A model generated the notes under the pieces. That model was not told the DNA's origin. It did not search any database and saw only the letters and a list, made by a program, of their open reading frames with translations. DNA of 64,000 nucleotides from Mycobacterium sp. EPa45. GTDB lineage: Bacteria > Actinomycetota > Actinomycetes > Mycobacteriales > Mycobacteriaceae. The translations under genes were made by a program, and so were the position numbers. Location of the stretch: positions 1,612,001-1,676,000 of the forward strand of contig NZ_CP011773.1 of the NCBI RefSeq assembly GCF_001021385.1, read 5' to 3'. Every line of letters starts with the position of its first letter. Position 1 is the stretch's first letter. Shown here piece by piece: positions 26,777 through 44,579 of the stretch.

Positions 26777-28855
<2,079 letters not shown>

Positions 28856-30139
28856 GTGGAGTGCGGACCGAATCGAGGTTGCGTGCGTTGTCGTCTGTGC
28901 GGCTCTAACCGACTCATCAGTGTTCTCGACCTGGGTGCCACGCCGCCATGTGAGCGGTTCCTGGGTGCCGACGACCTCGATGCGCCGGAGCCGACCTACC
29001 CGCTGCATCTGCGGCTCTGCGAAGGGTGTCTGCTGCTGCAGATCCCAGCCCTGATCACACCGGAGGACACCTTCACCGAGTACGCGTACTTCTCGTCCTT
29101 TTCCGACAGCTGGGTTCGGCACGCCGCGACCTTCGTCGGCGGCGCCGCCGAACGGCTTGGCCTCGGTCCGGAATCGTTTGTCGTCGAAGTGGCCAGCAAC
29201 GACGGCTACCTGCTGCAGCACGTGGTGGCAGCGGGAATCCCCTGCCTGGGCATCGAACCATCACACAACGTCGGAGCCGCGGCCCGCGACCGCGGGGTGC
29301 CGACTCGAACCGACTTCCTCGACGAGCAGGTGGCGCGGGCGGTAGTGCGCGAGCACGGCACCGCAGACCTCGTCGTCGCCAACAACGTCTACGCCCACGT
29401 GCCCGACATCGCAGGTTTCGGCCGGGCGCTGCGGATCCTGCTCGCCGACGACGGCTGGCTGAGCATCGAGGTCCACCACGCGCTGAACCTGGTGACGCTC
29501 GGCCAGTTCGACACCATCTACCACGAGCACTTCCAGTACTACACCGTGCTCACGGCGACCAGAGCCCTTGCCGCCGCCGGTCTCACCGTCGTCGACGCCG
29601 AGCTGATCCCCACGCACGGCGGATCGATTCGATTGTGGGCGCGGCCGGATTCGGTTGGCGCTGAACCGACGTCGCGCTTCTTCGACATCCTCGGTATGGA
29701 GCAACGGGCCGGGCTGCACGACACTGCCGGGTATCTCGGTCTGCGGTCCCGTACCGAAACGGTGCGCCACGAACTGCTGAGGTTCCTCCTGGACTGTAAG
29801 GCGGCGAACCGGCGCGTCGTCGGCTACGGCGCCCCCGGCAAGGGCAACACCCTGCTGAACTACTGCGGAATCCGCAGCGACCTCGTGGACTACACGGTGG
29901 ATCGCAACCCGTACAAGCATGGCCGATTCACGCCGGGCGCCCGCATTCCGATCCGCGAGCCCGCGGTCATCGACGAGGACCGTCCCGATGTCGTGCTGGT
30001 ACTGCCGTGGAATTTGGAAGCCGAGCTGACCGCACAGCTCTCGTACGTCACCGACTGGGGTGGCCAACTTGTCTACCCCCTGCCGAACCTTCATGTGATC
30101 AGTGGGAAGCCGGAAGTGGTTGGGGGTCAAAGTCGATGA
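28856..30139 (+). CDS. Zinc-finger SAM-dependent C-methyltransferase (NDP-sugar C-methyltransferase type)
   Basis: A 427-residue protein in three parts. An N-terminal zinc-binding region has two cysteine pairs (CRLCGS, CEGCLLL). A class I methyltransferase core carries VVEVASNDGYLL as the SAM motif and FDTIYHEHFQYYT, the Tyr-His-Glu-His catalytic signature of TylC3/TcaB9-like enzymes. A C-terminal Rossmann domain has VVGYGAPGKGNTLLNY. The family methylates carbon 3 of dTDP-4-keto-sugars. The start is GTG at 28856, though GTG at 28883 (VRCRLCGS) gives a more usual N-terminus. It heads the operon; its stop overlaps the next gene by four bases. Confidence 0.88.
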   Translation: MECGPNRGCVRCRLCGSNRLISVLDLGATPPCERFLGADDLDAPEPTYPLHLRLCEGCLLLQIPALITPEDTFTEYAYFSSFSDSWVRHAATFVGGAAERLGLGPESFVVEVASNDGYLLQHVVAAGIPCLGIEPSHNVGAAARDRGVPTRTDFLDEQVARAVVREHGTADLVVANNVYAHVPDIAGFGRALRILLADDGWLSIEVHHALNLVTLGQFDTIYHEHFQYYTVLTATRALAAAGLTVVDAELIPTHGGSIRLWARPDSVGAEPTSRFFDILGMEQRAGLHDTAGYLGLRSRTETVRHELLRFLLDCKAANRRVVGYGAPGKGNTLLNYCGIRSDLVDYTVDRNPYKHGRFTPGARIPIREPAVIDEDRPDVVLVLPWNLEAELTAQLSYVTDWGGQLVYPLPNLHVISGKPEVVGGQSR

Positions 30140-30918
30140 AAGTGGTCCTGTTCTGCGGCGGGTACGGCATGCGGATGCGCAACACCGTGGCCGACGACGT
30201 TCCCAAGCCCATGCAGATGGTCGGGCCCCGGCCGCTGCTGTGGCATGTGATGCGCTACTACGCTCACTTCGGGCACAAGGAGTTCATCCTCTGCCTGGGC
30301 TACGGGGCGTCGCGCATCAAGGACTACTTCCTGGAGTATCGGGAGACCGAGTCGAACGACTTCGTGATGCGCGACGGCGAGATCCAATTGCTGGACAACG
30401 ACATCAGCGACTGGACGATCACCTTCGTCGACACCGGACTGGAGTCGCCCATCGGCGAGCGGTTGCGGCGGGTGCGTGAGCACCTCGACGGTGACGAATA
30501 CTTCCTCGCCAACTACGCCGATGTGCTGACCGATGCACGGCTCGATGACATCGTGGACGCCTTCCACGCCTCCGGCGCCGCGGTGTCGATGATGCTCGTG
30601 CCGCCACAGCAGTCGTTTCACTGTGTCGCGGTCAAAGACTCCGGCGAGGTCAAGGAAATCGTGCCCGTCGCGAACTTCCCGATCTGGATCAACGGCGGCT
30701 TCTTCGTTCTCTCCCAAGAGGTTTTCGACTATCTGCCTGCCGGCGGCGACCTGGTCGCCGATGCGTGTGAAGCCCTGGCCGGACAGGGCCGGCTGTTCGG
30801 CTATCGGCACGAGGGTTTCTGGAAGCCGGCCGACACCTTCAAGGAGCGCGCCGAACTGGACGAGGGCTACCGCCACGGGAATCGGCCCTGGGCATTGTGG
30901 GAGCCCGCCCATGCGTGA
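30136..30918 (+). CDS. Sugar-1-phosphate nucleotidyltransferase (glucose-1-phosphate cytidylyltransferase-like)
   Basis: A 260-residue nucleotidyltransferase. MKVVLFCGGYGMRMR is the NTP loop, VPKPMQMVGPRPLLWHVM the substrate lysine region, and EFILCLGYGASRIKDYF is typical of RfbF-like cytidylyltransferases. NYADVLTD holds the metal-binding Asp, in place of the more common NGDGL. It would activate a hexose-1-phosphate as CDP- or dTDP-sugar for the C-methyltransferase upstream. ATGA overlap with the previous gene and an 8-bp overlap with the next show tight coupling. The actual nucleotide is uncertain. Confidence 0.85.
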   Translation: MKVVLFCGGYGMRMRNTVADDVPKPMQMVGPRPLLWHVMRYYAHFGHKEFILCLGYGASRIKDYFLEYRETESNDFVMRDGEIQLLDNDISDWTITFVDTGLESPIGERLRRVREHLDGDEYFLANYADVLTDARLDDIVDAFHASGAAVSMMLVPPQQSFHCVAVKDSGEVKEIVPVANFPIWINGGFFVLSQEVFDYLPAGGDLVADACEALAGQGRLFGYRHEGFWKPADTFKERAELDEGYRHGNRPWALWEPAHA

Positions 30919-31561
30919 ACTGCTGGCCGACAATGTCGAAGAGATCGCGGTGGCCGGGGCGCACTGCGACGACATCGCCATCGGAATGGGCGGCACGTTG
31001 TTGGCGCTGTCGGCGGACACGCCGGGGCTTCGCGTGCATGCGCTGGTGCTCTCAGGCGGCGGTAGCGAGCGTGAGTCCGAGGAGCGGGCCGCGCTCGACG
31101 CGTTCTGCCCGGGCGCTTCGGTGCGGGTCACCGTGCTGGACATCCCGGACGGCCGTTCACCGGCACACTGGCAGGAGGTGAAGGCAGCCCTGCACGAATT
31201 CCGCCAATCCTGCGACCCGGCAATTGTTTTCGGTCCGCAGCGGCATGACGCCCACCAGGACCACCGGCTGCTCGCGGAGCTGCTGCCGACCGAGTTCCGC
31301 GACCATCTGATTCTCGGGTACGAAATCTTGAAGTGGGAAACCGACACTCCGCAGCCGAATCTGTTTCACCCGCTGCCGCACGGGGTCGCCGAGAAGAAGG
31401 CCCACCTCCTGGGTAAGCACTACCCGTCGCAGGCGATGCACGACTGGTTCGACGAGGAGGCCTTCCTCGGCTTGTCACGGTTGCGTGGGATCCAGTGCCG
31501 CAGCCGGCACGCGGAGGCGTTCACCGCAGAAAAAATGTCAATCGGATTCGGAGGTCGTTGA
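30911..31561 (+). CDS. PIG-L family deacetylase
   Basis: A 216-residue zinc deacetylase of the LmbE/PIG-L family. The metal motif AHCDDIAIGMGG (AHxDD) is near residues 17-28, and the second part RHDAHQDHR holds the third histidine. Family members remove N-acetyl groups from GlcNAc-containing intermediates, such as MshB. In this setting it probably exposes an amine on a sugar or lipid-linked glycan (inference). It overlaps the nucleotidyltransferase by 8 bp, and the next gene begins at the following base. Confidence 0.88.
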   Translation: MRELLADNVEEIAVAGAHCDDIAIGMGGTLLALSADTPGLRVHALVLSGGGSERESEERAALDAFCPGASVRVTVLDIPDGRSPAHWQEVKAALHEFRQSCDPAIVFGPQRHDAHQDHRLLAELLPTEFRDHLILGYEILKWETDTPQPNLFHPLPHGVAEKKAHLLGKHYPSQAMHDWFDEEAFLGLSRLRGIQCRSRHAEAFTAEKMSIGFGGR

Positions 31562-32602
31562 GTGCGCGTCCTCGTCACCGGTCACCAGGGGTACCTCGGC
31601 ACGGTCATGGTCGGCGTTCTGCGATCGGCGGGGCATGACGTCGTCGGTGTCGACGCAGGCTATTTCGCCGACTGCGTGCTGGGTCCCATGCCTGTCGACC
31701 CGGTCCAGATCCGCGGGGGAGGCCCGGTGGATCTGCGTGATGTCACCACCGATGATCTGGTCGGGGTGGATGCCGTCGTCCACCTGGCGGCGTTGTCCAA
31801 CGACCCGCTCGGCGATCTCGCCCCCGACGTCACCTTCGAGATCAACCACCGGGCGTCGGTACGACTGGCGCACGCGGCCAAAGCGGCCGGCGTGTCCCGC
31901 TTCCTGTATGCCTCGACGTGTTCGGTGTACGGATCGGCCGGCGACGACCTGGTCGACGAGCAAGCGCCCCTTCGTCCGCTGACGCCGTATGCGGAGAGCA
32001 AAGTCCGGGTGGAGGACGACCTGGTCGCGATCGCCGACTCCGGATTCGCACCCGTATTCCTGCGGAATGCAACGGCTTTCGGCTTCTCACCGCGGCTTCG
32101 TGCCGACATCGTTCTCAACAATCTGGTCGGGCACGCGGTGCTCACCGGTGTGGTGAAGGTGCTCTCCGACGGCACACCGTGGCGGCCGCTGGTCCACGCC
32201 CAGGACATCGCCGAGGCGTTCCTGCTGTGCCTGACCGCGCCGGTTCAGGCCATCTGGTGCCAGGCGTTCAACGTCGGCGCCGAGGCCAACAACCTCACGG
32301 TGGCCGAGATCGCGCAGGCCGTGGTCGACGTCGTCCCGGCCGCGGAACTGCATATCACCGGGGAGACCGGTGCCGATCCGCGTTCCTACCGAGTCGATTT
32401 CGCGAAGGTCCGCGACCGCCTGGGATTCCAGCCGCAATGGAGCGTGGAGGCCGGTGCTGCGGAGCTGTATGCCACCTACACCAACCATGAGCTGACCCAC
32501 GACGGTTTCGCCGGCCGGTTTACTCGGCTGGCCCGGCTGAAGGAGCTTCGCGAATCCGGTGTGCTCGACGCGACTATGTATCAGGCCGGTCGAGTTGGCT
32601 GA
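31562..32602 (+). CDS. NAD-dependent sugar epimerase/dehydratase (extended SDR)
   Basis: A 346-residue extended SDR. MRVLVTGHQGYLGTVMVGVL gives the GxxGxxG, SNDPLGDLAPDVTFEINHRAS and STCSVYGSAG the substrate region, and TPYAESKVRVE the catalytic Tyr and Lys. Such enzymes epimerise or dehydrate nucleotide sugars. The GTG is directly after the deacetylase stop. The 3' end overlaps the inverted epimerase gene by 29 bp. With the methyltransferases and the RmlC-like gene it likely builds a modified deoxy-sugar. Confidence 0.88.
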   Translation: MRVLVTGHQGYLGTVMVGVLRSAGHDVVGVDAGYFADCVLGPMPVDPVQIRGGGPVDLRDVTTDDLVGVDAVVHLAALSNDPLGDLAPDVTFEINHRASVRLAHAAKAAGVSRFLYASTCSVYGSAGDDLVDEQAPLRPLTPYAESKVRVEDDLVAIADSGFAPVFLRNATAFGFSPRLRADIVLNNLVGHAVLTGVVKVLSDGTPWRPLVHAQDIAEAFLLCLTAPVQAIWCQAFNVGAEANNLTVAEIAQAVVDVVPAAELHITGETGADPRSYRVDFAKVRDRLGFQPQWSVEAGAAELYATYTNHELTHDGFAGRFTRLARLKELRESGVLDATMYQAGRVG

Positions 32603-33140
32603 CCAAATCGCGCCAGCTGCCCGCCGCCCGGTCGCGTGCCGAGACGGCCGTGGGAGCAATCGGCCACGCTATGGCGAGATCGGGGTCGTCGAAGGCGACC
32701 GCGAGGTCTTCGCCCGGATCGTGCGGACGGTCGATCCGGTAGCAGACATCGGCGGTCGGCGTCAGGGCCTGGAAGCCGTGCAGGAATCCGCGCGGCACGA
32801 AGAGGTGGCGAAAGTCGGTGTCGTCGAGGACGACCGACGCCTGCTGGCCGAACGTCGGCGATTGACGCCGGATATCGACGACGACATCGTGCACGGCGCC
32901 GTTGGCGCACCGAATCAATTTCGATTCACCGTGCCCCGAGCGGCCGTGCATGCCACGGATCGTTCCCCGCACCGAGCGCGACTGGGAATCCTGGATGAAC
33001 GATGCGCTGAGACCCGGCGCGCCAAGGTGGTTGTCGAAGACATCGGCGTCGAAGGTGCGGGTGAAGAAACCGCGGTCGTCGAAGAACGGCTGGGGGACGA
33101 GCACCAGCAGGCCGGCGATATCGGTTTGCTTGATCTCCAC
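32574..33140 (-). CDS. dTDP-4-dehydrorhamnose 3,5-epimerase family protein (RmlC-like)
   Basis: A 188-residue cupin of the RmlC family. RGMHGRSGHGESKLIRCANG and FVPRGFLHGFQAL are the standard motifs, with the catalytic His in the first and a conserved His in the second. The usual H-Y-Q after RG(L/M)H is changed to HGR, so the substrate may differ from dTDP-4-keto-6-deoxyglucose. The start is GTG at 33140, the only starting codon in this frame near the divergent gene at 33155. It is the sole minus-strand gene among the coupled plus-strand enzymes and overlaps the SDR end by 29 bp. Confidence 0.86.
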   Translation of the reverse strand: MEIKQTDIAGLLVLVPQPFFDDRGFFTRTFDADVFDNHLGAPGLSASFIQDSQSRSVRGTIRGMHGRSGHGESKLIRCANGAVHDVVVDIRRQSPTFGQQASVVLDDTDFRHLFVPRGFLHGFQALTPTADVCYRIDRPHDPGEDLAVAFDDPDLAIAWPIAPTAVSARDRAAGSWRDLVSQLDRPDT

Positions 33141-33154
33141 GAGGCCATGCTGCC

Positions 33155-34288
33155 ATGAGCCGTTGCCGAGGGTGTCGTGGTCCGGGCCTGGTGCCCGTGT
33201 TGGATCTGGGACGCGTTCCCGCCCAGGACTTCTTCCCGTCCGCCGCCGATCCCGTTGCGCCGGATGAATCGGCGCACCCATTGGCGATGGTCATGTGCAC
33301 GACGTGCGGCCTGGCCCAACTGGCCGATGACGACACCGTGACCGACGAACCGCGCGGCGTCGAGCCGCAGGCGCTTCAACGCCAGGCGGCCGACGCGGTG
33401 GCCCGGGTGGCCGCAGCGCACCTGCTGCGGGGCTCGACGGTGCGTGAGTTCGGCAGTCCGCACGGGGGCACCTGGCTGCCGTTGCTCGCCGAACGCGGGT
33501 TCGCCCCGGCCGAGGTGGGCGACGTGGTCCTAGACAGCTTCGGCCTCATGCACGAGCCCGACCAGCTGAACGCGTTCACGCGCCGCGCACTGGCGACGGC
33601 CAAAGACGGTGTGCTGCTTGTCCAGTACCACTCACTGGCGACGATCGTCGGCAAGCACCAGTGGAACGCCCTGCGGCACGGCCACTACGCCTACTACTCG
33701 ACGACCGCGTTGCTCGGACTGCTGAAGCAGGTGGGGATGAGCGCGGTCGAGGCGTGGGAATTCGACCTGTACGGCGGAACGGTGTTGGTTGCCGCGCGGC
33801 ACGGTCATCTCGCCCCGCCCGCCTCGGTGCGCCGTATTCTCGCCGGCGAGAAGGCGATCACCGATCCCGCGGCTGTCGGAAGGCTGCAGCAGGCCACCGA
33901 CGCTCACTGTCGACGGTTGCGGGAGTGGCTGGAACTCCAGGCTGCGCAGCGGCGCCGGGTCTTCGCCTACGGTGCGGCATCGCGTGCGGTGGCGTTGTTT
34001 GCACTCGCCGAAGTGACCACTGCGCTCGTCGCCGCGGTCGCCGATGCCTCCCCGGCCAAGCAGGGACGACGGATGCCCGGCACCGACGTGCCGATCATCG
34101 CGCCTGCCGAACTCCTGGCCGCCGAACCGGATTGTGTCCTGCTCACCCTGCCCGACCTCCTCGCCGAGGTCACGGCAGCCTACCCCCAACTCACCGGTCG
34201 ATGGGTCAGTGACGACCGCTTCATGACAAACGAATTATCGACAACCCCTGCGCAACAACAGATGTACCGAGAGGAATCACGCATATGA
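33155..34288 (+). CDS. Degenerate zinc-finger C-methyltransferase paralogue
   Basis: A 377-residue relative of the protein at 28856. The N-terminal cysteine pairs (CRGCRG, CTTCGLA) and the C-terminal Rossmann domain (VFAYGAASRAVALFAL) are kept. The SAM-binding motif is eroded (VREFGSPHGGTWLPLL where the paralogue has VASNDGYLL), and the catalytic YHEHFQYY has become RHGHYAYY. It may therefore be a non-catalytic partner or an enzyme of changed chemistry. The ATG lies 15 bp from the divergent epimerase start; the stop overlaps the next gene (ATGA). Confidence 0.75.
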   Translation: MSRCRGCRGPGLVPVLDLGRVPAQDFFPSAADPVAPDESAHPLAMVMCTTCGLAQLADDDTVTDEPRGVEPQALQRQAADAVARVAAAHLLRGSTVREFGSPHGGTWLPLLAERGFAPAEVGDVVLDSFGLMHEPDQLNAFTRRALATAKDGVLLVQYHSLATIVGKHQWNALRHGHYAYYSTTALLGLLKQVGMSAVEAWEFDLYGGTVLVAARHGHLAPPASVRRILAGEKAITDPAAVGRLQQATDAHCRRLREWLELQAAQRRRVFAYGAASRAVALFALAEVTTALVAAVADASPAKQGRRMPGTDVPIIAPAELLAAEPDCVLLTLPDLLAEVTAAYPQLTGRWVSDDRFMTNELSTTPAQQQMYREESRI

Positions 34289-35148
34289 GTAACGTCGTCG
34301 GAATCTGGGAAGCGATGCCGCACTCGACGCGTCGGCCCACCATCTCGGTGGTGATACCGGCGCTGAACGAGGAGCGCAACCTGGCCTACCTCGCGTCGCG
34401 GCTGCCGCACGACGTCGACGAAATCGTGTTCGTCGACGGAGATTCTGCGGACAACACCGCGTTGGTGGCGCGCGAACTGTGGCCCAACGGTGTTCACCTG
34501 CGACAAACCCGGAAGGGTAAGGGCAACGCGCTGGCGTGTGGATTCGAGGCTGCCACCGGCGACATCGTGGTGATGATCGACGCCGACGGGAGCACCGACC
34601 CAGCCGAGATCCCGCGCTTCGTCGGCGCGCTCATCTCGGGCAAGGACTTCGCCAAGGGGTCCCGGTTCGTCCAGGGGGGCGGCAGCAGTGACATCACCCG
34701 TCTCCGGCGGGTGGGTAATTGGGGTCTCAACACCTTGGTCAACACGTTATTTGCCACCAAGTACACCGATCTGTGTTACGGGTACAACGCGTTCTGGCGG
34801 GACTGCCTCGAGGTCATGGACCTGCCCGCCACCGAGACTCGGGACGCGCAGTGGGGCGACGGCTTCGAGATCGAGTCCTTGATCAACGTGCGGGTGGCCG
34901 CGAGCGGTATGCAGATCGCCGAGGTCAGCAGCTACGAGCTCGACCGCATTCACGGTGCCAGCAATCTCAACGCCGCCAAGGACGGCCTGCGCATCCTGTG
35001 GACCATCCTGGCCGAATTCCAGCGGGCGCGCCGGCGCGGATGGCGGCGCAGCGTGCGCAACAACGAGGTCACCGAGGCTGTGGGTTCGCGGCTGCGCCGG
35101 GTTGCCGAGTCGCACGACCAATCGTTACCAGACGTGCGGCACGCGTGA
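34285..35148 (+). CDS. GT2 glycosyltransferase (polyprenyl-phosphate sugar transferase type)
   Basis: A 287-residue GT-A transferase. ISVVIPALNEERNLAYL, DEIVFVDGDSADNT and MIDADGSTDPAEIPRFV (DxD) are present, close to dolichyl/polyprenyl-phosphate mannosyl- and glucosyltransferases (DPM1-like). There is no clear membrane segment. It may charge a polyprenyl-phosphate for the GT-C-like membrane protein further down, which is inference. ATGA overlap with the previous gene. Confidence 0.88.
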   Translation: MSNVVGIWEAMPHSTRRPTISVVIPALNEERNLAYLASRLPHDVDEIVFVDGDSADNTALVARELWPNGVHLRQTRKGKGNALACGFEAATGDIVVMIDADGSTDPAEIPRFVGALISGKDFAKGSRFVQGGGSSDITRLRRVGNWGLNTLVNTLFATKYTDLCYGYNAFWRDCLEVMDLPATETRDAQWGDGFEIESLINVRVAASGMQIAEVSSYELDRIHGASNLNAAKDGLRILWTILAEFQRARRRGWRRSVRNNEVTEAVGSRLRRVAESHDQSLPDVRHA

Positions 35149-35176
35149 GATGGCCGACGGGACGGGGGATTGAGCT

Positions 35177-36079
35177 GTGTGCCAGGCTATTTCGTCAGAG
35201 TGCCATACCGAGCGGGGCAGTGAGACCAGACGGCCGAAGGTCTCGCTGTGTATACCCGCCTTCCAAGCCGGCCAGTATCTGCGGGACACCCTCGACAGTG
35301 TGCTGGCACAGGAGTTCCCGGACCTCGAGGTCGTCGTCGTCGACAACAACAGCTCCGATGAGACACCGGCGATCCTGGACGCGATCACCGACGACCGTGT
35401 CCGGGTGGTCCGCAACGAGACCACCCTGTCGGCCGAGGACAACCACAACCTGGCGGTCAGGCTCAGCCGAGGTGAGTTCGTGAAAGTGATCAGTGCCGAT
35501 GACACGCTCAAGTACAACTGCGTCGCGGCGCAGGCTGCCGTCCTGCAGAGCAACCCGGACGTGACCGTGGTGGCCAGCCGAACAGATTTCATCGATGATG
35601 CGGGTGCCCTTCTCTTCGCTGCCCGGGGTTTACGGGGGATTCTGGGTCGGCAAACCGGTGAGCGGGTGATCCGGCAAATGGTTCGCAGCGCCAAGAACCC
35701 GGTCGGCGCTCCGGTGTCGGTGATGTTCCGGCGCAGTGATTTCGATCGGTGCGGTGGCTTCCGTGGCCCGCACCTGTTCACGCTCGACATGGACCTGTGG
35801 ACCCGGCTGTTGAGCTTTGGGCATTTCTACGGCATGCCCGAGACCCTGGCTGCCTACCGCATCCGAGGCGGCTCGCTGACCGCGCTGACCTCAGCGCGAT
35901 CGCAGCTGGTGCAACAGGACACGTTCTCCCGCAGGCTGATCGACGATCCGCGCTGGGACATCCCCTATGTGGACCGGCTACTGGGCAAGTTGAACCGATA
36001 TGACGTCCTGCTGAAACGGGTGATGCTGTTCAAGTTGAGCAGTGTGCGGACGTCGCGGCGACGATCATGGGCAGGCTGA
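35177..36079 (+). CDS. GT2 family glycosyltransferase
   Basis: A 300-residue GT-A transferase. VSLCIPAFQAGQYLRDTL, LEVVVVDNNSSDETPAIL, and VKVISADDTLKYNCVA (DxD-like ADD) are typical; the acceptor side contains SVMFRRSDFDRCGGF and FTLDMDLWTRLL. The donor cannot be predicted. The start is GTG at 35177, 28 bp after the previous stop, with a GGGGG run upstream. The next gene starts 1 bp after its stop. Confidence 0.86.
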   Translation: MCQAISSECHTERGSETRRPKVSLCIPAFQAGQYLRDTLDSVLAQEFPDLEVVVVDNNSSDETPAILDAITDDRVRVVRNETTLSAEDNHNLAVRLSRGEFVKVISADDTLKYNCVAAQAAVLQSNPDVTVVASRTDFIDDAGALLFAARGLRGILGRQTGERVIRQMVRSAKNPVGAPVSVMFRRSDFDRCGGFRGPHLFTLDMDLWTRLLSFGHFYGMPETLAAYRIRGGSLTALTSARSQLVQQDTFSRRLIDDPRWDIPYVDRLLGKLNRYDVLLKRVMLFKLSSVRTSRRRSWAG

Positions 36080-36080
36080 C

Positions 36081-37055
36081 ATGACGCGTGAGCGCAATCT
36101 CGCCACCGCCCCGCGCGACACCGTGACGGTGTCGGTGGTGATCTGTGCGTACACCACCGAGCGCTGGGAGCGGCTGCGCCAGGCGGTGGAGTCGGTGCTG
36201 ATCGGCGGCGACACGCCGGTTGATCTGATCGTGGTGATCGACCACTGCGATGAATTGCTGGCCGCCGCACAGCGGCTCTTCGGTTCCGACCCGCGAGTCC
36301 GGGTGATTCCGAACACCGAGACGCGCGGGCTGTCCGGGGCGCGCAACACCGGGGTCCGCGCCGCACATGGCGATGTGGTGGCCTTCCTCGACGACGACGC
36401 GGTGGCTCAGCCGGGGTGGGCCGAAGACCTCAGTGACCACTACCGAGACGAGACGGTCGTGGGGGTGGGTGGCTACGCCAGCCCGGTGTGGCCGGCTGCC
36501 CGGCCCAGCTGGATGCCCCCGGAATTTGACTGGGTAGTCGGGTGTAGCTACATCGGGCAGCCGAAACAGACTGCGCCGGTGCGTAATCCGATTGGGTGCA
36601 ACATGTCACTGCGGCGCTCGGTGCTGGACGAGGTGGGCGGCTTCCGATCCGAGGTGGGCCGAGTCGGCGCCACGCCGGTCGGCTGTGAGGAAACCGAGCT
36701 GTTCATCCGGGTCCGTGCGGCACAGGCCGCCAACCAGGTGCTGTTCGATCCCGACATCCGGGTCGAGCATTATGTCTCCGAAGACCGTACGACGCTGCGG
36801 TATTTCGTGCGCAGGTGTTATCACGAAGGCCTGTCGAAGGCCGTGGTGACCGAGATGGCCGGCACAGCAGCAGGATTGAGTAGCGAACGCTCCTATGTGA
36901 GTAGGGTGCTGCCGATGGCGGTCGCGCGGGAATTGAGATCGATGACCATCGACGGACTTGCCCGGGCCCTGACGATCTGTCTTGGGCTGGCCGCCACCAC
37001 CGCCGGATTCGCCCGGGCCAAGGTCGGTCGCGGCTTGTCCGGGGGCGCGCGATGA
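36081..37055 (+). CDS. GT2 family glycosyltransferase
   Basis: A 324-residue transferase. VSVVICAYTTERWERLRQAV, RGLSGARNTGVRAAHGDVVAF and LDDDAVAQPGWAEDL (DDD) mark the GT-A fold; GCEETELFIRVRAAQ is the ED-type acceptor motif. A weakly hydrophobic stretch at about 293-315 may attach it to the membrane. Its N-terminus and GARNTG segment resemble the protein encoded directly downstream, so the two probably arose by duplication. It is coupled to that gene by ATGA. Confidence 0.87.
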   Translation: MTRERNLATAPRDTVTVSVVICAYTTERWERLRQAVESVLIGGDTPVDLIVVIDHCDELLAAAQRLFGSDPRVRVIPNTETRGLSGARNTGVRAAHGDVVAFLDDDAVAQPGWAEDLSDHYRDETVVGVGGYASPVWPAARPSWMPPEFDWVVGCSYIGQPKQTAPVRNPIGCNMSLRRSVLDEVGGFRSEVGRVGATPVGCEETELFIRVRAAQAANQVLFDPDIRVEHYVSEDRTTLRYFVRRCYHEGLSKAVVTEMAGTAAGLSSERSYVSRVLPMAVARELRSMTIDGLARALTICLGLAATTAGFARAKVGRGLSGGAR

Positions 37056-38386
37056 ACGCCGGCGATTCCGTCTGCCTGACGCTCGAGCCGGTGTTGCCGA
37101 ATCCCGACCGGCCGAGCTGGGCCGGGGCGATCTGGATCGGCGAAGTGTCGCTCGACGCCGTCGCTTCCGCCGACAAGGCCAGCGCGGACTGTGGCACACC
37201 CGCGCAGTGCCGACTCCAGAACGCCGAGGGATTCTCCAAAGCGCGACTACTGGTCCGCGATCGGGATCGTGCGGTCGGGTTCGTCGATGTCGCCGTCACC
37301 GACGGGCAGGTGGTCTTCGCCGAGCTGCGGGATCAAGTTGGCGCGCAACGGCTCTGCCCATCACCACCGGTGCCGGTCAGGGAAGGTATTGCATCGACCG
37401 AACTTCCTCACGTGACCGTGGTCGTGTGCACCAGGGATCGCACCGACCTGCTGAAGTCGGCGGTGGCATCGGTCCTTGCCGCCGACTACCCGGACTTCGA
37501 TGTGCTCATCGTGGACAACGCGCCACGCACCGACGCCACCCGTGAGTACGTCACAAGCCTCGCCGACAATCGAGTGCGACTGCTCACCGAACCGGTTCCC
37601 GGTCTGTCCCGGGCCAGGAACACCGGTCTGCTGGCCGCCACCGGGACCATCGTTGCCTTTGTCGACGACGATGTCGTCATGGACCCAGCCTGGCTCAGTG
37701 TCCTGGTCAAGGGATTCACGTATGGCGACTCGGTGGCGTGTGTGTCCGGTATGGTGCCCGCCGGTGAACTGCGCACCCCCGCACAGGCTTACTTCGAGAA
37801 CCGCGCGGGCTGGACGGAATCGGCGCACGTTCGGGTCTTCGAGTGGTCGCACGCGCCGCAGGATGTTCCGTTGTTTCCCTTCGAAGTCCGGCACTACGGG
37901 ACCGGCGCCAACTTCGCCGTCGACCGCCAGGTGGTGATGAGTCTGGGCGGCTTCGACGAACGGCTCGGCGCCGGGACGAAGGTGAGCGGCGGAGAAGACA
38001 TCGACATGTTCTTCCGCATTCTGCGGTCCGGGCGTCAGCTCGTGCGCGAGCCCGGCGCGATCGCCTGGCATCGGCATCGGGCCACGGCTGATGACCTGCG
38101 TGCCCAGACCAGGGGCTACGGCTTGGGCTTGGGGGCCTGGCTGGCGAAGATCGCGTCGGACCCGCCGATGGCAATGCTCGCGCTGAAGACGATCGCCCGT
38201 CGCCGGCCGGCAATGGTTCGCCATCTGCGGTCCACGGCCGAGCGGGCGGCACCGTCGACGACCGTGAAATTCGATCTACCTGCCGATATCGGCAGCGGCA
38301 CGTTGCGATTCATCGTGACCGGGGCGTGGGTGTACCTCGTTGCAGCGTCGCGGCGCCGACTGTCGAAGGTCGGCGGCTCATGGTGA
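37052..38386 (+). CDS. GT2 glycosyltransferase with 115-residue N-terminal extension
   Basis: A 444-residue protein. The GT-A domain starts near residue 117 (HVTVVVCTRDRTDLL) with DVLIVDNAPRTDATREYV, GLSRARNTGLLAATG and FVDDDVVMDPAWL (DDD), followed by GGEDIDMFFRILRSG. The N-terminal 115 residues (SVCLTLEPVLPNPD, WAGAIWIGEVSLD) contain beta-type segments but match nothing I know. A hydrophobic segment at about 415-430 near the end may contact the membrane. ATGA overlap with the previous GT and a 7-bp overlap with the flippase. Confidence 0.86.
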   Translation: MNAGDSVCLTLEPVLPNPDRPSWAGAIWIGEVSLDAVASADKASADCGTPAQCRLQNAEGFSKARLLVRDRDRAVGFVDVAVTDGQVVFAELRDQVGAQRLCPSPPVPVREGIASTELPHVTVVVCTRDRTDLLKSAVASVLAADYPDFDVLIVDNAPRTDATREYVTSLADNRVRLLTEPVPGLSRARNTGLLAATGTIVAFVDDDVVMDPAWLSVLVKGFTYGDSVACVSGMVPAGELRTPAQAYFENRAGWTESAHVRVFEWSHAPQDVPLFPFEVRHYGTGANFAVDRQVVMSLGGFDERLGAGTKVSGGEDIDMFFRILRSGRQLVREPGAIAWHRHRATADDLRAQTRGYGLGLGAWLAKIASDPPMAMLALKTIARRRPAMVRHLRSTAERAAPSTTVKFDLPADIGSGTLRFIVTGAWVYLVAASRRRLSKVGGSW

Positions 38387-39648
38387 CCACCGAGGTTGTG
38401 CCGCCCGCCGCTGGGCGCAACATGACGGTCAACTCACTGGCGTTGATCGCCTCCAGTCTGCTGACCGGGATGTTGGGTCTGGTCTTCTGGGGAGTTGCCG
38501 GACGGCTTTATCCCGCAACGGAAGTGGGTGTGGCGGCGGCGCTGATCACCTCGGCGCTGATGCTGTCGATGATGTCGATGTTGAGCATCGACAACATCTA
38601 CGAACGCTTCCTGCCGGTGGCCGGCGAGAAGGCCGGCTCACTGATCAAACGGGGATATCTGGTCGTCGCGGGCACGAGCCTGCTCGCCGGCTGGGCGCTG
38701 GTGGTGTTCGGTCCGCGCGACGAATTGTTCACGTCGGGCTGGGCGATGGTCTGTTATCCGTTGCTGGTGATGGTGCTGGCGGTGTTCACGTTGTTGGACA
38801 AGACCGCCGTCGGTCTCGGCGTGACGAAGTGGTCTGCGGCGAAGAACCTGATTCATGCCGTCGTCAAGCTGGCGGCGCTGTTCGGTCTGGTCTGGACTGG
38901 CAGCGGTGCGTCTATCGTGCTGGCCTGGGGCGCGACTGCGGCCGCTGGAATTCTGTTCGTGCTGGCCGCGATGCGCCGGCGGTGGCGGACGCATGCTCAG
39001 TTCCGCCGGCCGTCCGAGCTTCCGGCCCAACGACATCTGCTGTCGTATGTCGGGTCCTCGTTCGGGATCACCACGCTGTGGCTCATCGGGCCACTCGTAG
39101 TGCCGCTGATCGTCGTCAGCCGATTCGGAGCGGCGGCCAACGCGCACTTCGCCGTGGCATGGGCGATCATCAATGCGCTGTACTTCGCGGTACACCTGGT
39201 GATGAGTCCATTCGTCGCGGAGGTGGCGGCCCACCCCGACAAGGTGGCAGCGCTGTCCACCCGGATGGTGCAGATGATGGCCGTGGTATCAATCATCGGC
39301 GCGCTCGGGCTGGTCGGGGTCGGACCGTATGTCCTCGGCCTCATCGGCTCTGACTATCGAGCGCAAGGGCAGGGGCTGCTCGTGCTGGCGGCGGTGTTCG
39401 TGCCGCTGTCTGCGGTGAGTGCGATCTACGAGGGATTCGCACGCGTCAGCCGAAAGATGACCCTGATGGTCGTGATGCGGTGCGTGTCGACTGTGACCGT
39501 GGTCGCGGGAACGGTACTGATCACGCCGCACACCGGAGTGGTCGGTGTGGGCTGGGCATACCTTGCGGCCGAAGCGATTCCGGCGCTCGTCTTGTTGCCG
39601 CCGGCGATTCGCTGGCTGCGCCGGGCACGCGCGAACAGCGCGGGTTAA
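38380..39648 (+). CDS. Polysaccharide flippase (Wzx-like, MOP superfamily)
   Basis: A 422-residue membrane protein with about twelve hydrophobic segments from residue 17 to 415. The N-terminal SLLTGMLGLVFWGVAGRLYPATEVGVAAAL is the common start of oligosaccharide flippases (the Ala-Thr-Glu-x-Gly pattern after the first helix). It would move a lipid-linked repeat unit across the membrane. The ATG at 38380 lies within the end of the preceding transferase gene. Its 3' end overlaps the convergent GH16 gene by four bases. Confidence 0.87.
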   Translation: MVTTEVVPPAAGRNMTVNSLALIASSLLTGMLGLVFWGVAGRLYPATEVGVAAALITSALMLSMMSMLSIDNIYERFLPVAGEKAGSLIKRGYLVVAGTSLLAGWALVVFGPRDELFTSGWAMVCYPLLVMVLAVFTLLDKTAVGLGVTKWSAAKNLIHAVVKLAALFGLVWTGSGASIVLAWGATAAAGILFVLAAMRRRWRTHAQFRRPSELPAQRHLLSYVGSSFGITTLWLIGPLVVPLIVVSRFGAAANAHFAVAWAIINALYFAVHLVMSPFVAEVAAHPDKVAALSTRMVQMMAVVSIIGALGLVGVGPYVLGLIGSDYRAQGQGLLVLAAVFVPLSAVSAIYEGFARVSRKMTLMVVMRCVSTVTVVAGTVLITPHTGVVGVGWAYLAAEAIPALVLLPPAIRWLRRARANSAG

Positions 39649-40418
39649 AGCGGATACTGGCGGGCCCAGTCGACCGTCATGGATGCACCGCTGCTCAGGT
39701 CCGCGCCGAAGTTGTCGAGCTGAATGCACAGGTGCATCGGGCCCGGCGGCAGTTCGGCCGGGTTGGTGGTCTCCCACCACTGAACGCCGTCGACGAACAT
39801 CGCCACCCGCGCAGGCGTCCATTCGACCGCCCAGCTGTGCCACTGCGTCGCATCGATCCGCACTGCGCTCGACTGGCGCTCGTCGTTCGGGCCGTAATGC
39901 AGCCAGCCCTCGACCGACTGCCGCGTGGGATCACCGATCTCCATGAAGTCGACTTCACCACCGACGGGCCAGTTTTCGGCGTCGGGCCACAGCAGCAACA
40001 AGCTGTGGTAGTCGGGACCCGATGGCGAGGACTTGACGCAGGCCTCCCAGCGGCCATGCAATTGACCGGGGAGCCACGCCATCCCACCCGAGTTTCCCTG
40101 AGCATCGCCGGTGAGGGTCAGCCTGTCGTCGGCGACGGAAACCGCACCCCGGGTGCGTCGGCCGTTGCCATTGTGGCCCGGTCCGTCATAGATCGACCAC
40201 TGGCGCAGTGACCCGGGTTCGGTGAAGTCGTCGACGCGGTTGGGGGCGCCCCACCCCTGGGTGGCGGCGGCCGTGGTGGGGCAGTTGCCGTTGCCGGTCT
40301 GCGCGCCGGCGACCGGGCGCAACAGGGCGGAGGAACCCACGTTGAGTGCGAGGACGCTGGCCGCCACGATGGCCATAGACATCACCACACGAGCGGCTCG
40401 CGAAATGGCGGCAGGCAT
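39645..40418 (-). CDS. Secreted glycoside hydrolase family 16 (beta-glucanase-type)
   Basis: A 257-residue enzyme with a signal peptide (residues 1-39, hydrophobic core VVMSMAIVAASVLALNVGSS, cleavage after VAGAQ likely). The catalytic ExDxxE motif is GGEVDFMEIGD, with Glu155, Asp157, Glu160. GH16 enzymes cleave or transglycosylate beta-1,3/1,4-glucans. GGGAG precedes the ATG. It is transcribed against the operon and converges on the flippase. Beside a flippase and glycosyltransferases it probably trims or remodels the exported polymer, which is inference. Confidence 0.9.
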   Translation of the reverse strand: MPAAISRAARVVMSMAIVAASVLALNVGSSALLRPVAGAQTGNGNCPTTAAATQGWGAPNRVDDFTEPGSLRQWSIYDGPGHNGNGRRTRGAVSVADDRLTLTGDAQGNSGGMAWLPGQLHGRWEACVKSSPSGPDYHSLLLLWPDAENWPVGGEVDFMEIGDPTRQSVEGWLHYGPNDERQSSAVRIDATQWHSWAVEWTPARVAMFVDGVQWWETTNPAELPPGPMHLCIQLDNFGADLSSGASMTVDWARQYPL

Positions 40419-40456
40419 GTGCTCCCTTGGTCCCGACCCGGGAACTGCCAGTTTAC

Positions 40457-40651
40457 CTAGCCATCGGACCGGTCGCCTCGGCCCATCGATGTGATCCAGC
40501 CCAGCGCTGTGCTGACGGGTCCCGGCCCCCGGAATCGACCGCATGGACACAGCCCGCAATCCGTTCCGCCCCGGTAGTGTTCGTGTGCCGAACGGTCGTG
40601 CCCGCATTTACACAGCCGATCTCGCATAAGTCCGGAACCATACGCTGCCAC
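40457..40651 (-). CDS. Small Cys/His-rich (probable zinc-binding) protein
   Basis: A protein of 56-64 residues with the pattern CKCGHDRSAHEHYRGGTDCG then LCPCGRFRGPG, i.e. CxCxH-x4-HxHY-x5-C-x2-CxC. I recall similar short mycobacterial proteins of unknown function (CGHxxxAHEHYRxGxxC). The start may be GTG at 40651 or ATG at 40627, and neither has a clear ribosome site. It sits between the two GH16 genes, upstream of the first on the same strand (39-bp gap). Confidence 0.55.
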   Translation of the reverse strand: MAAYGSGLMRDRLCKCGHDRSAHEHYRGGTDCGLCPCGRFRGPGPVSTALGWITSMGRGDRSDG

Positions 40652-40913
40652 AGGGTGTCCCGGTCCCGATTGCCTGGGCCGATCGGGTGCTTGTCGAGGC
40701 GCACCGCTGGTCGACGCATGACCGGAATGTGGATCGCGATTCTGAATTGCGCTGGGAACTAAGCGAATTGAGGAGCCTGCTGAGCAGATCAGTACCCGAT
40801 CGCTTCCGGCCGATCGTTACCAAAGTGATAGGTCGGCCCAATACGGAAAGTGATTTTGCCCACATAGCGTGGTCTTCGCGCTCGCCGAGCGCCTTCGACG
40901 CGATGGAGCCGCG
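40652..40913. promoter_or_regulatory. 262-bp gap upstream of the second GH16 gene
   Basis: No convincing gene. The stretch from 40730 to 40870 is relatively AT-rich and probably carries the promoter of the plus-strand gene at 40914. CGATCG occurs twice (40797-40802 and 40812-40817), giving a short inverted arrangement. The ribosome site GGAG for 40914 lies at 40903-40906. Confidence 0.4.
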
Positions 40914-42134
40914 ATGTTCCGGTGGTGCTCGGCGAGTGTGATGGCGATGGCGGTCGCCTGCGGCGTGGTCCTGGCTGTGGCACCGCCGGCGCCGGCCGCC
41001 GACGCGACGTCGATCGAAGCCGAGACGATGAGCCTCTCGACGACCAAGGGCGCCAAGATCGTCACCGACGCAGGCGCATCCGGTGGAACCGCGCTCAGCT
41101 TGACCGGCGCTGTGACGCTGTCGACGACCCTTGCGTTGCCGCAATCGATCAAAGTCGTCATGCGTGCCAGGGGGCTGCAATGTTTTGGTGCGCCCGTCGC
41201 CGCGGTGCTCGTCGACGGCGTGGTGATCGGCCGGAGCCCGATCACGGCGACCACATGGACCGACTACACCGCGACCGCCAACATCCCGGCGGGAACGCAC
41301 GCGATCGGGATCACTTTCACCAATCCGCAGTGGTTCTTCTGTGTACGCACGTTGTACGTCGACACGGTCAGCGTCGTGGCGTCGACGACCTCGCAACCCG
41401 CTGATCTGACCCAGGCGCCGCTGGCCGACCTTCCGGGGTGGAAACACATCCTCGCCGACAACTTCACCAAGGACGCCGCGCCGGGAAGCTGGGCCAACCC
41501 CGCGGATCCGGCCAAAGTCGTCTACGTGGGCGCCGACGGCCAGCAGTGGCTGACCTATCCGCAGACGTTCACCGACACCTACCAACATCGCCCGTATCGC
41601 GCCGACCAGGTACTCAGTGTCAGCAACGGCACGCTGAACTATTACCTGCACAATGTCGACGGCCAGCCGGCGGGCGCCAGCCCGTCCCCGATCCTGCCGA
41701 ACGGCACCCAGTACCAGACCTACGGTCGCTATTCGGTGCGGCTCAAAGTCGACACCGCCGCGCTGGCCGAGTATCACATCGCATTCCTGCTGTGGCCGCA
41801 GTCCGAACTCTGGCCGACCGACGGCGAGGAGGATTTTCCGGAGGGCGCGTTGTCCTCGACCGCCAAAGCGTTCGCGCACTACGCCCGTTCGACCGGCGGC
41901 CAAGACGGGGTGGACACCGGCAAGACGTTCACCGACTGGCATGTGTACACCGTCGAGTGGCTGCCCGGCCATGTCCGGTTCTATCTCGACGACGCTCTGG
42001 TGCTGGACAGCACCAAGTATGTACCCAGCAAGCCGATGCGCTGGCAACTGCAGGTCGAGACCAACGGGAGCGGGACCAATAGCGGTCATGTGCTGGTCGA
42101 CTGGATTTCCATCTGGTCGTACACAGGAAGTTGA
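40914..42134 (+). CDS. Secreted GH16-like glycoside hydrolase with N-terminal carbohydrate-binding module
   Basis: A 406-residue exported protein. The signal peptide (residues 1-29) ends at APAAD. Residues about 33-155 form a CBM35/CBM6-like beta module (SIEAETMSLSTTKGAKIV, then a VRTLYVDTVSVV end). Residues about 175-405 are GH16-like, with GEEDFPEGAL giving Glu305, Asp307, Glu310 as an ExDxxE catalytic motif. The spacing is right, but FPE in place of the common F/I-M-E is unusual. The ATG at 40914 has GGAG 7 bases upstream; an earlier GTG at 40869 is poorer. The next gene follows in 40 bp. Confidence 0.85.
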   Translation: MFRWCSASVMAMAVACGVVLAVAPPAPAADATSIEAETMSLSTTKGAKIVTDAGASGGTALSLTGAVTLSTTLALPQSIKVVMRARGLQCFGAPVAAVLVDGVVIGRSPITATTWTDYTATANIPAGTHAIGITFTNPQWFFCVRTLYVDTVSVVASTTSQPADLTQAPLADLPGWKHILADNFTKDAAPGSWANPADPAKVVYVGADGQQWLTYPQTFTDTYQHRPYRADQVLSVSNGTLNYYLHNVDGQPAGASPSPILPNGTQYQTYGRYSVRLKVDTAALAEYHIAFLLWPQSELWPTDGEEDFPEGALSSTAKAFAHYARSTGGQDGVDTGKTFTDWHVYTVEWLPGHVRFYLDDALVLDSTKYVPSKPMRWQLQVETNGSGTNSGHVLVDWISIWSYTGS

Positions 42135-42174
42135 CACCTGCACGTGCGACGTCAGCTAACGGTAGGCTGGGTCG

Positions 42175-44385
42175 GTGCTGCAAAGCGTCGTGAGCTCCCC
42201 GGCACCGCCGGCTCGCCGGACGCCACTGCCGCCCTGGTTCCCTCTGGCCGTCGTCGCCTCGGCCGCCCTGATCACCGCCTCACTGATCGTCACCGTGCTC
42301 GCCCGGGTGGGCGTGGCCGATGTGCTGCCGCCGTCGCTGCGCGCCGTCGTGGGAGTTCTGGCGGTGTTCACCGTCCCCGGGCTCCCGGTCGCTGCGCTGC
42401 TGCGATTGCCGAACGGGTTGTTCACCGCCGTTGCGGTGTCGGTGTCACTCTCGGTCAACATCCTTGTCGCTCAATTCAATTACGCGGGTGACTTTCATCG
42501 GCCGTACGCCGCCCAATACGTGGTGTTGATGCTGGGGGTGGTGGCCACTGCGGTGCTGGCGAGCCAGTGGTATCGCTGCCCGGAGCCGACGCCCGCGGCG
42601 GGCGTACTGCGCTGGGCGCGAAGCGGATTGGCGCCGACCGGAGACCGGCGAGTCAGCGCGATCCTGCTGCTGACCGCGGTGGTGTTGTTCTCCACCGCTG
42701 TTTATCGGCTCGATGTGCAAGCGGCGGGCGCCCTGGGACTGGTCGGCATCCTCGGTGTCGACTACTGGGCCGGGCTGGTGCTGCTGTGCGTCGTCTTCGT
42801 GATCGAATACCGCCGCGCCGCACTCGACCGGCTCACGATCGCCGTCGCCAACGTCGTACTCACCGCGTACATCACCATGCCGGTCGCGTGGTCGTTGGGC
42901 ACTGCGCCGTTCGTGACCGGCTACGTACACCGCATGATCACCAACTGGCTGATCACCGCCGGTACCCTGCCGCCGCCGGTCGATGCCCGCATCAGCTGGG
43001 CGGGTTTCTTCTCGGCGGCGGCCAATCTGATCACCACCACCGGCCTGTACGACAGCGTGATCCTCGTGGTCAGCGCCTCACTGGTTTTCTGCGTCCTGCT
43101 GATGTTCCCGGTGTATTCGATCGGCCTGTCGATTACCGGGAGCCGGCGGGTTGCCTGGCTCGGCGTCACGATGCTCACCCTGTTCAACTGGTACCAGCAG
43201 GACTATTTCGCCCCGCAGGCCGTCGCGATGCAGTTCTACGCCACGATCCTGGCCGTAATGCTGTGGCAGTTGCGCACATCGAACGTGCCGGTCCTCGCGG
43301 GTGGTCTGCGCAAGCGCTTGACGACGGCATGGCGGCGGCTGCCGGGATGGGCGGCCGGCCGCGATGCGCGGTGGACGCTGGCGGTCGAGGCGACGTTGGT
43401 GGTCATCCTGGCTGCGATGGTGGTGGAGCATCAGTTGACACCACTGTCGGCGATCGGCGCGCTGGTGGTCTTCGCGGTCGCCGGCCTGACGCGCTACAAG
43501 CTGTTGTGGCTGGCGGCCTTCGTGATGTTCATCTTCTGGTTTCGCTATGGTGCGACCGCATACTGGACGGGCCACCTCGGCCAGGTGATCGCCGACATTG
43601 GTGGCGTTGATCAGAATCTGAATTCCAGTGTCTCGCAGAAGATCACGGGCGATCCCACCTATCGTCGCATGCAGTTGCTCAGGCTCGTCTCCGCGGTGGT
43701 GGTCATGGCGATGGCCGGCCTCGGATGGCTGCGGCTGCGCCGAATGCCGCGCAGCCGGCCGTGGCTCATGGCGGCGCTGGCTCTGGGGCCGTTCGGTCTG
43801 GTGTTGCTCCAGAGCTATGGCGGCGAAGTGGCGATCCGCGCCTTTCTCTATGGGTCACCGATCCTTTCGCCGCTGGCCGCATTGAGCATCGTGACGTTGC
43901 TGCGTCCGCGCAGCGGCCGCGTCGTAGCGCGGCGGGTGACCGCGGCGGCGGCGGGCTTCGTACTGTTCGCCACCGCCCTGCTGGTGACCGCGAACCGTGG
44001 ACTCAACATCTCATTCGAGCGAACGACACCGCACGAGTTGGCAATCGGTACCGAACTGGTCGACAAGATCGGCGACGCCGGGCTCGGGTATTGGGGACAG
44101 GGTGCCCTCTACGGGGTGCCGCGAAAGTTCGAACTGAAGACCTCGTGCTTCGAGACCGCCGAGCACCTGGCCGACTGTACGGCCCAGCCCGAAGTCCAAT
44201 ACTTCTCGAACACCCAGCAGGACGAGAACTTCGTCCGCTACAGCGCCGGGGTCAGCCGCGAGATCACGCATCGCGCGCTGGAGCTGCTGCAGACCGAGAA
44301 GGGTTATCAGAAGATCTACGACTCCGGCGGCGTGCTGGTGCTCAAGCGGCCCGAGGTCCGGGACGTCCGATTGGGAGGCAACTGA
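42175..44385 (+). CDS. Large polytopic membrane protein (possible GT-C transferase or polysaccharide polymerase)
   Basis: A 736-residue protein with about 13-15 membrane segments up to residue 605, then a soluble C-terminal domain of about 130 residues (GLNISFERTTPHELAIG, LGYWGQGALYGVPRKF). A large outer loop (WSLGTAPFVTGYVHRM, WLITAGTLPPPVDARISW) resembles those of GT-C or Wzy-type proteins. No GT-C Asp/Glu motif near the first loop can be pointed to with certainty, so the enzyme class is open. The start is GTG at 42175. Its stop overlaps the small membrane gene (TGATG). In the cluster it is the only candidate for polymerase. Confidence 0.7.
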   Translation: MLQSVVSSPAPPARRTPLPPWFPLAVVASAALITASLIVTVLARVGVADVLPPSLRAVVGVLAVFTVPGLPVAALLRLPNGLFTAVAVSVSLSVNILVAQFNYAGDFHRPYAAQYVVLMLGVVATAVLASQWYRCPEPTPAAGVLRWARSGLAPTGDRRVSAILLLTAVVLFSTAVYRLDVQAAGALGLVGILGVDYWAGLVLLCVVFVIEYRRAALDRLTIAVANVVLTAYITMPVAWSLGTAPFVTGYVHRMITNWLITAGTLPPPVDARISWAGFFSAAANLITTTGLYDSVILVVSASLVFCVLLMFPVYSIGLSITGSRRVAWLGVTMLTLFNWYQQDYFAPQAVAMQFYATILAVMLWQLRTSNVPVLAGGLRKRLTTAWRRLPGWAAGRDARWTLAVEATLVVILAAMVVEHQLTPLSAIGALVVFAVAGLTRYKLLWLAAFVMFIFWFRYGATAYWTGHLGQVIADIGGVDQNLNSSVSQKITGDPTYRRMQLLRLVSAVVVMAMAGLGWLRLRRMPRSRPWLMAALALGPFGLVLLQSYGGEVAIRAFLYGSPILSPLAALSIVTLLRPRSGRVVARRVTAAAAGFVLFATALLVTANRGLNISFERTTPHELAIGTELVDKIGDAGLGYWGQGALYGVPRKFELKTSCFETAEHLADCTAQPEVQYFSNTQQDENFVRYSAGVSREITHRALELLQTEKGYQKIYDSGGVLVLKRPEVRDVRLGGN

Positions 44386-44579
44386 TGATCGAACTCGCAT
44401 TGTTCGCCGCGGCGGGGTTGCTGTACGCGCTGGCCGGTTATCGGCGCGAGCGGGCGGTGCCAGGGGACGGGACGCGTCGAATCGACCGGACCACCGCGAT
44501 CGTCATGATCGAGGCGGGGTGCATGGCGGTGGCTGCCGTCGTGGCCGCGATGCTCTACATGGTGACCGTGGTCTCGTGA
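44385..44579 (+). CDS. Small membrane protein coupled to the polytopic protein
   Basis: A 64-residue protein with two hydrophobic segments (residues 2-18, LALFAAAGLLYALAG, and 39-62, VMIEAGCMAVAAVVAAMLYMV) separated by a charged loop. TGATG overlap with the 736-residue protein suggests equal production and a complex. No family was recognised. A small hairpin (AGCCGCC/GGCGGCT, 44579-44593) covers the stop codon. Confidence 0.6.
   Translation: MIELALFAAAGLLYALAGYRRERAVPGDGTRRIDRTTAIVMIEAGCMAVAAVVAAMLYMVTVVS

Follow-up and report, generated by a model that had tools for sequence, protein, structure and literature searches.

The chromosome of Mycobacterium sp. EPa45 carries, between accD5 and a gene encoding a protein with a bPH_2 domain (PH), a set of sixteen genes that an earlier reading of the DNA alone (hereafter, the sequence-only reading) had put forward as a candidate polysaccharide pathway. 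We followed up this proposal in the 64-kb window on which it was based, which corresponds to bases 1612001-1676000 of the 6.18-Mb single-contig genome; judged by this locus, the nearest named relatives are Mycolicibacterium. Fourteen of the sixteen genes are on the plus strand, and the predicted components, i.e., enzymes for sugar activation, C-methylation, deacetylation and epimerization, four GT2 glycosyltransferases, a flippase, a large membrane protein and two GH16 enzymes, were all found in place. While this content stands, the proposed extent of about 16 kb ending at position 44579 of the window was too short, since the set spans ~17 kb and reaches ~45428, adding a gene that we named ZnR. 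The genes had also been read as mostly overlapping, and six same-strand junctions do overlap (four by 4 bp, two by 8 and 38 bp) for the chosen starts, of which those at 30136, 30911, 33140 and 38383 were selected inside longer open reading frames (ORFs).

The cluster begins with a sugar cassette. CMT1 (28856..30139, plus strand; PF08421, PF13489, PF08484) is an NDP-sugar 3-C-methyltransferase of the TcaB9/D-mycarose methyltransferase type, which matches PDB entries 4rv9 (E 1.8e-77) and 3ndi (E 9.6e-67) over its full length, and displays both the three-domain architecture and the YHEH motif that is catalytic in this class of enzymes. Because CMT1 is a full-length relative of these solved 3-C-methyltransferases, which make antibiotic sugars, a C-methyl branch is likely, although CMT1, unlike them, is encoded beside envelope glycan genes. 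NTPt (30136..30918, plus) is a sugar-1-phosphate nucleotidyltransferase closest to glucose-1-phosphate cytidylyltransferase (PDB 1tzf, E 7.6e-45), with a TIGR02623 score of 192 bits, well under the cut-off of 300. It is followed by PIGL, a PIG-L/LmbE-type deacetylase (30911..31561, plus; PF02585, E 9.8e-12, in a longer ORF at 30623-31561), and by EPI, an NAD-dependent sugar epimerase/ketoreductase (31562..32602, plus; PF01370, E 1.5e-42) that contains YxxxK and best resembles epimerases, its best NCBIfam match, galE, being under cut-off. Among the NCBIfam matches of the gene set, none to a 4,6-dehydratase was at or above cut-off, and a housekeeping enzyme may therefore feed EPI. An RmlC-like dTDP-sugar 3,5-epimerase (32574..33140; PF00908, E 1.2e-53), encoded on the minus strand, opposite to its neighbors, scores 159 bits with TIGR01221 in the longer form of its ORF, above the cut-off of 155.75. 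The last gene of the cassette, CMT2 (33155..34288, plus), encodes a C-methyltransferase-like protein (Methyltransf_13/14 in Pfam). It would be a second C-methyltransferase, but in an alignment of the window copy with four orthologues and CMT1 (one 100-base row from locus L040 was disregarded), both the S-adenosylmethionine-binding stretch and YHEH are gone from the window copy and from 4/4 orthologues. The C-methylation assignment thus holds for CMT1, whereas CMT2 is, from its alignment, probably not a methyltransferase but a conserved protein, possibly with a new role.

Four GT2 glycosyltransferases follow, all on the plus strand. GT_A (34285..35148) is of the AglJ/dolichol-phosphate mannose synthase (DPMS) type: it scores 120 bits with the AglJ model, under the cut-off of 325, and its best PDB match is the DPMS structure 5mlz, with a 16-member alignment as further evidence. 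GT_B (35177..36079) matches PF00535 with an E value of 5.5e-26; GT_C (36042..37055) was assigned by Pfam; GT_D (37052..38386) matches PF00535 at residues 122-249, behind ~120 additional N-terminal residues. The genome encodes three phosphoglycosyltransferases (PGTs) elsewhere, and these gave no match by tblastn (E 1e-3, without positive control) in any of 53 sequences, i.e., the window and 52 loci in which several genomes are present twice and one, L127, is an empty site. Considering the resemblance to AglJ/DPMS and the lack of a PGT match in these 53 sequences, GT_A is the likeliest starter of the chain, but because of the three PGTs encoded elsewhere, a start in trans is possible.

The next gene, FLIP (38383..39648, plus), encodes a 421-residue MOP-superfamily transporter, a proposed lipid-linked glycan flippase of the Wzx/MurJ type. 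FLIP itself has no Pfam match, and PF01943 matches 8 of 22 family members at E values up to 0.1 (best 8.8e-8). However, its AlphaFold2 model, with a pLDDT of 88.5, was matched by Foldseek to MurJ (E 1.4e-7), WzxE (TM-score 0.76) and MATE transporters (TM-score 0.65). The MOP fold predicted by this model is therefore secure, while a Wzx role is suggested by the neighboring genes, since the fold also covers MATE transporters. This flippase is pertinent to the possibility that the cluster is a described mycobacterial glycolipid pathway, for lipooligosaccharides (LOS), glycopeptidolipids (GPL) or trehalose polyphleates, at an unusual place. LOS pathways do use several glycosyltransferases and unusual branched sugars, but LOS and GPL pathways also have genes for polyketide synthases, non-ribosomal peptide synthetases (NRPS), acyltransferases and MmpL proteins, and no such domain is present in the cluster proteins scanned with Pfam (and NCBIfam for ten ORFs), which have a MOP flippase instead. 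We thus consider a known glycolipid pathway to be very improbable, in agreement with the sequence-only reading that this is not the GPL or LOS set. As a separate observation, in related loci of other mycobacterial genomes the flippase shares an ORF of ~1300 residues with adenylation, carrier and thioesterase domains (L121:10297-14187, L122:2222-6145, L124:1391-5284). Open frames of 1220-1375 residues are found at 11 of 68 flippase loci, with domain content read in these three, and the fusion of a flippase with one NRPS-like module suggests attachment of an activated acid to the glycan.

Two GH16 genes lie between FLIP and the gene for the large membrane protein. GH16a (39645..40607, minus; PF00722) has an export-like segment, a hydrophobic stretch at residues ~68-96, which suggests a later true start, and an active-site motif that reads EVDFME. 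GH16b (40869..42134, plus) combines a CBM60 module (PF16841) with GH16 (PF00722), and has a signal-like segment (hydrophobic stretch at 20-38) and the motif EEDFPE, so that ExDxxE is kept in both proteins.

The large membrane protein, M736 (42175..44385, plus), is the key enzyme of the cluster. Its structural model reveals a GT-C fold with a C-terminal domain, nearest to the oligosaccharyltransferases STT3, AglB and PglB, with AftA, Emb and ArnT also among the fold matches. At the sequence level, M736 matches neither STT3 models nor PDB chains, and none of 24 family members has a Pfam match to STT3, Wzy or O-antigen ligase. While M736 shares the GT-C fold and C-terminal domain with the GT66 family (STT3, AglB, PglB), it differs in having about 130 more N-terminal residues with helices and invariant FNWYQQDY and Y-x-GE...R motifs, and in lacking WWDxG, a motif of oligosaccharyltransferases that is absent in 24/24 members. 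We therefore assign M736 as an oligosaccharyltransferase-like GT-C glycosyltransferase, and propose that it is a repeat-unit polymerase or transferase.

This fold is compatible with more than one function. M736 might be a true oligosaccharyltransferase or ligase, transferring the lipid-linked oligosaccharide en bloc to protein, envelope glycan or lipid, with no long polymer being made. Its structural neighbors would fit, and an AglJ-like GT_A together with a MOP flippase parallels the layout of haloarchaeal N-glycosylation, but the missing WWDxG and STT3 matches argue otherwise, as does GH16, which is matched at 29/29 named M736 loci and points to a polymer, an argument weakened by its absence at the six diverged core loci described below. 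We regard such a transfer as unlikely. Alternatively, the proteins could form a three-component system for adding one sugar, in which GT_A would make a polyprenyl-phosphate sugar, FLIP would flip it and M736 would use it to branch a polymer built elsewhere. GT_A is indeed DPMS-like, AftA, Emb and ArnT are fold matches of M736, and the GT-CA families GT53, GT83, GT39 and GT57 use lipid-phosphate monosaccharides. However, the flippases of known three-component systems are small and of the GtrA type, whereas the lipid III flippase WzxE has the highest TM-score with FLIP; moreover, the core is accompanied by additional GT2s and, in two genomes, a single ORF combines a GT2 with parts of the flippase and of GT-C. 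One-sugar addition is, in our view, also rather improbable.

A chance grouping of the genes is excluded by the conservation of the same gene order, at the same site, in seven other genomes (loci L065-L071; the ends of L065, L070 and L071 were read from L036, L040 and L043, stretches at the same positions). Identities of the cluster genes in these genomes are mostly 70-97%, the exceptions being GH16a (down to 57-60%), ZnR (down to 57% in L041, same species as L070) and GH16b of L071 (46%, over 78 of 421 residues only), and L070 has ~3.4 kb extra between the flippase and GH16a. In a survey of 198 genomes of the genus, in which M736 and the flippase were searched separately, M736 relatives were found in 36 genomes with a single sequence and in 28 with a profile. 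Among these 36, E values are <1e-200 in 11 (own genome included), 5e-21 to 2e-42 in 6 and weaker in the remainder. Flippase relatives were found in 56 of the 198. With fragments of the same gene joined manually, a flippase lies within 20 kb of M736 at 38 of 42 M736 loci from the single-sequence search (34/36 genomes) and, conversely, M736 lies within 20 kb of the flippase at 39 of 68 flippase loci. Furthermore, single ORFs with minimum lengths of 1721 and 1743 residues (L079:6391-11553 and L080:6497-11725) combine parts of a flippase, an APH-family kinase, a GT2 and a GT-C protein, the GT2, a GT_C relative, and kinase being detected by Pfam and the flippase and GT-C parts by tblastn at 25-30% identity; in L049, a GT_C relative shares an ORF with a GT_D relative. 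Together with the co-location, the fusions of flippase, GT2 and GT-C argue that these parts act as one machine.

The same core extends to other actinobacteria. The 29 named M736 loci come from Mycolicibacterium/Mycobacterium, Rhodococcus, Rhodococcoides, Gordonia, Kitasatospora, Phytohabitans, Modestobacter, Nocardioides and Lolliginicoccus. Besides GH16, they match GT_C type (28/29), GT_D type (28/29), flippase (22/29) and GT_A (20/29), counts that are not independent since GT2 queries cross-match one another, as do GH16a and GH16b. GT_A, flippase and a further GT2 occur together at 19 of these loci, which hold at most 10 kb per side, so that a missing FLIP or GT_A may lie beyond; indeed, the next stretch of the L044 genome (L125) contains FLIP, GT_A and GT_D matches. 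GT_A, GT_C, the flippase and GT-C are also matched at six diverged core loci (L075-L080), none of which has a GH16 match. The sugar genes, by contrast, are variable. In G008, a 70% complete genome with the cluster on two contigs (L072 and L126), CMT1 and NTPt are directly before GT_A, but neither cluster contig has a PIG-L, EPI, RmlC or CMT2 match. L074 has both a DegT aminotransferase and a GT4, and a pyruvyl transferase lies near L057. Constant assembly genes combined with exchangeable sugar genes are characteristic of capsule and O-antigen loci.

On balance, we lean toward this being a strain-variable surface polysaccharide pathway with a flipped, lipid-linked repeat unit, in which M736 takes the place of Wzy, and from the genes we infer the following reactions. 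NTPt, CMT1, the RmlC-like protein, EPI, PIGL and perhaps CMT2 would produce an activated, C-methyl-branched deoxysugar. GT_A would transfer the first sugar to polyprenyl phosphate, a presumed monophosphate linkage, and GT_B, GT_C and GT_D would extend it to an oligosaccharide. FLIP, acting as a Wzx-type MOP flippase, would bring this lipid-linked oligosaccharide to the outer face, where M736 would use it as donor, most likely joining repeat units, and the secreted GH16a and GH16b might cut or trim the polymer. The outline in the sequence-only reading, that is, a lipid-linked branched-sugar unit that is flipped, polymerized and trimmed, fits these results and gains support from the MOP and GT-C folds, the fusions and the conserved core. 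It remains the preferred interpretation, to which our analysis adds the fold of the key enzyme and the finding that other actinobacteria share the core. Polymerization as opposed to ligation or one-sugar addition, a free as opposed to a protein-linked glycan, and the sugar itself are features that we infer only. More tentatively, an AglJ-type starter acting on polyprenyl monophosphate and a GT-CA oligosaccharyltransferase-like polymerase may define a widespread actinobacterial system, with a polymerase class outside GT-CB and the other families described for bacterial polysaccharide polymerases.

Comparison with known systems puts this proposal in context. No description of this gene order was recognized among the open-access matches listed, subscription papers being outside the scope. 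The locus resembles Wzx/Wzy-dependent systems in having cytoplasmic glycosyltransferases, a MOP flippase, a polytopic extracytoplasmic transferase and a nearby glycosidase, but it has no match to a PGT or Wzz and no Pfam match to Wzy or O-antigen ligase; the only Wzz matches in the genome are at genome positions 1143930 and, below cut-off, 3228478. Actinoplanes missouriensis provides Wzx/Wzy-dependent examples in its imp and wps clusters (PMC12691653, PMC13390465), and ImpE, a GT-C-like protein of the Alg6_Alg8 superfamily, is proposed as Wzy (PMC12691653). By analogy, ImpE would be the nearest precedent for M736 among the literature matches listed, but the enzymes encoded around it differ from ours: imp comprises three GT4 enzymes and a single GT2 and adjoins a GH5, as opposed to four GT2 and GH16 here, and M736, unlike ImpE, has no Pfam match. 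The proposal that a DPMS-type GT2 initiates an extracellular glycan has a parallel in the haloarchaea, in which AglJ N-glycosylation is dolichol-phosphate-initiated, but our locus is bacterial, its initiation step is predicted from sequence, and GT_A is under the AglJ cut-off. In an archaeon, a dolichol-phosphate-sugar step in exopolysaccharide formation is attributed to AepG (PMC9943897), which offers a precedent. As for the glycosidases, ExoK and ExsH are GH16 glycanases encoded at the succinoglycan locus that cleave this exopolysaccharide, and GH16a and GH16b may be analogous, although the succinoglycan assembly proteins are unrelated to those here.

If M736 is a polymerase, an oligosaccharyltransferase-like fold would operate in polysaccharide polymerization, in a glycosyltransferase family without a Pfam entry, thus linking protein N-glycosylation structurally to bacterial capsule assembly. 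The mycobacterial envelope is usually described by its arabinogalactan, lipoarabinomannan, glycolipids and alpha-glucan capsule. A Wzx-type heteropolysaccharide that is modular and differs between strains would supplement these with a layer resembling O-antigen, which would matter for phage adsorption, biofilm and colony form. In one classification (PMC10920833), bacterial polysaccharide polymerases are GT-CB or belong to clans that are assigned no structural class, and GT-CA comprises GT53, GT83, GT39, GT57 and GT66, with only GT66 using lipid-diphosphate oligosaccharides. Under this classification, a polymerase of the GT-CA class would be a novelty.

Two small genes complete the cluster. The first (44385..44579, plus), which overlaps the end of M736 by a single base, encodes a 64-residue protein with two hydrophobic stretches and no Pfam match, which is conserved with M736 (tblastn matches in 19 of 45 loci, L036-L080, several genomes being present twice). 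The second, ZnR (44616..45428, plus), encodes a double zinc ribbon, a DUF2510 domain, both from Pfam, and one hydrophobic helix, and it adjoins M736 at L044, L045 and L073 (L044 and L073 are one genome), where the stretches examined show no PH match.

Upstream, the cluster is bordered by accD5 (26777-28405, minus), which is divergent from it, and by 450 bp without recognized gene (28406..28855), a possible control region. This stretch is AT-richer (57% GC at 28500-29000 vs 67% overall) and has two promoter-like matches over both strands vs a mean of 0.2 in shuffles, which is no evidence of function. Downstream, the PH gene (45456-45974), identified by Pfam, is followed by a GtrA gene (45929-46570) that adjoins PH in cluster-free genomes as well. 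Empty sites are seen in two cluster-free relatives, L127 and L128, in which accD5 and PH are 87 and 86 bp apart, and PH is 91% and 93% identical to that of the window. Elsewhere in the EPa45 genome, a second, conventional polysaccharide locus is suggested by a PGT (genome position 1113062) and the above Wzz (1143930), ~31 kb apart, with no cluster homologues found there (G000:C1:1113062-1144166; L129, L130).

The sequence-only reading had also contrasted the locus with M. tuberculosis, in which birA presumably occupies this position, a contrast that carries no weight. birA is single copy in the EPa45 genome, at 49545-50330, behind fadE25 and not adjoining PH. In a sample of 30 PH neighborhoods (about 3.5 kb each) taken from 31 genomes, birA adjoins PH in 19, the end of the cluster does in 3 (window included), accD5 does directly in 3, and neither birA, cluster nor accD5 does in 5. 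In G008, birA lies between two GH16 genes, while L126 ends with PH, GtrA, purK, purE and fadE25, as in the window. Since L127, which is cluster-free, has birA behind fadE25 just like the window genome, birA relocation and cluster presence are separate events.
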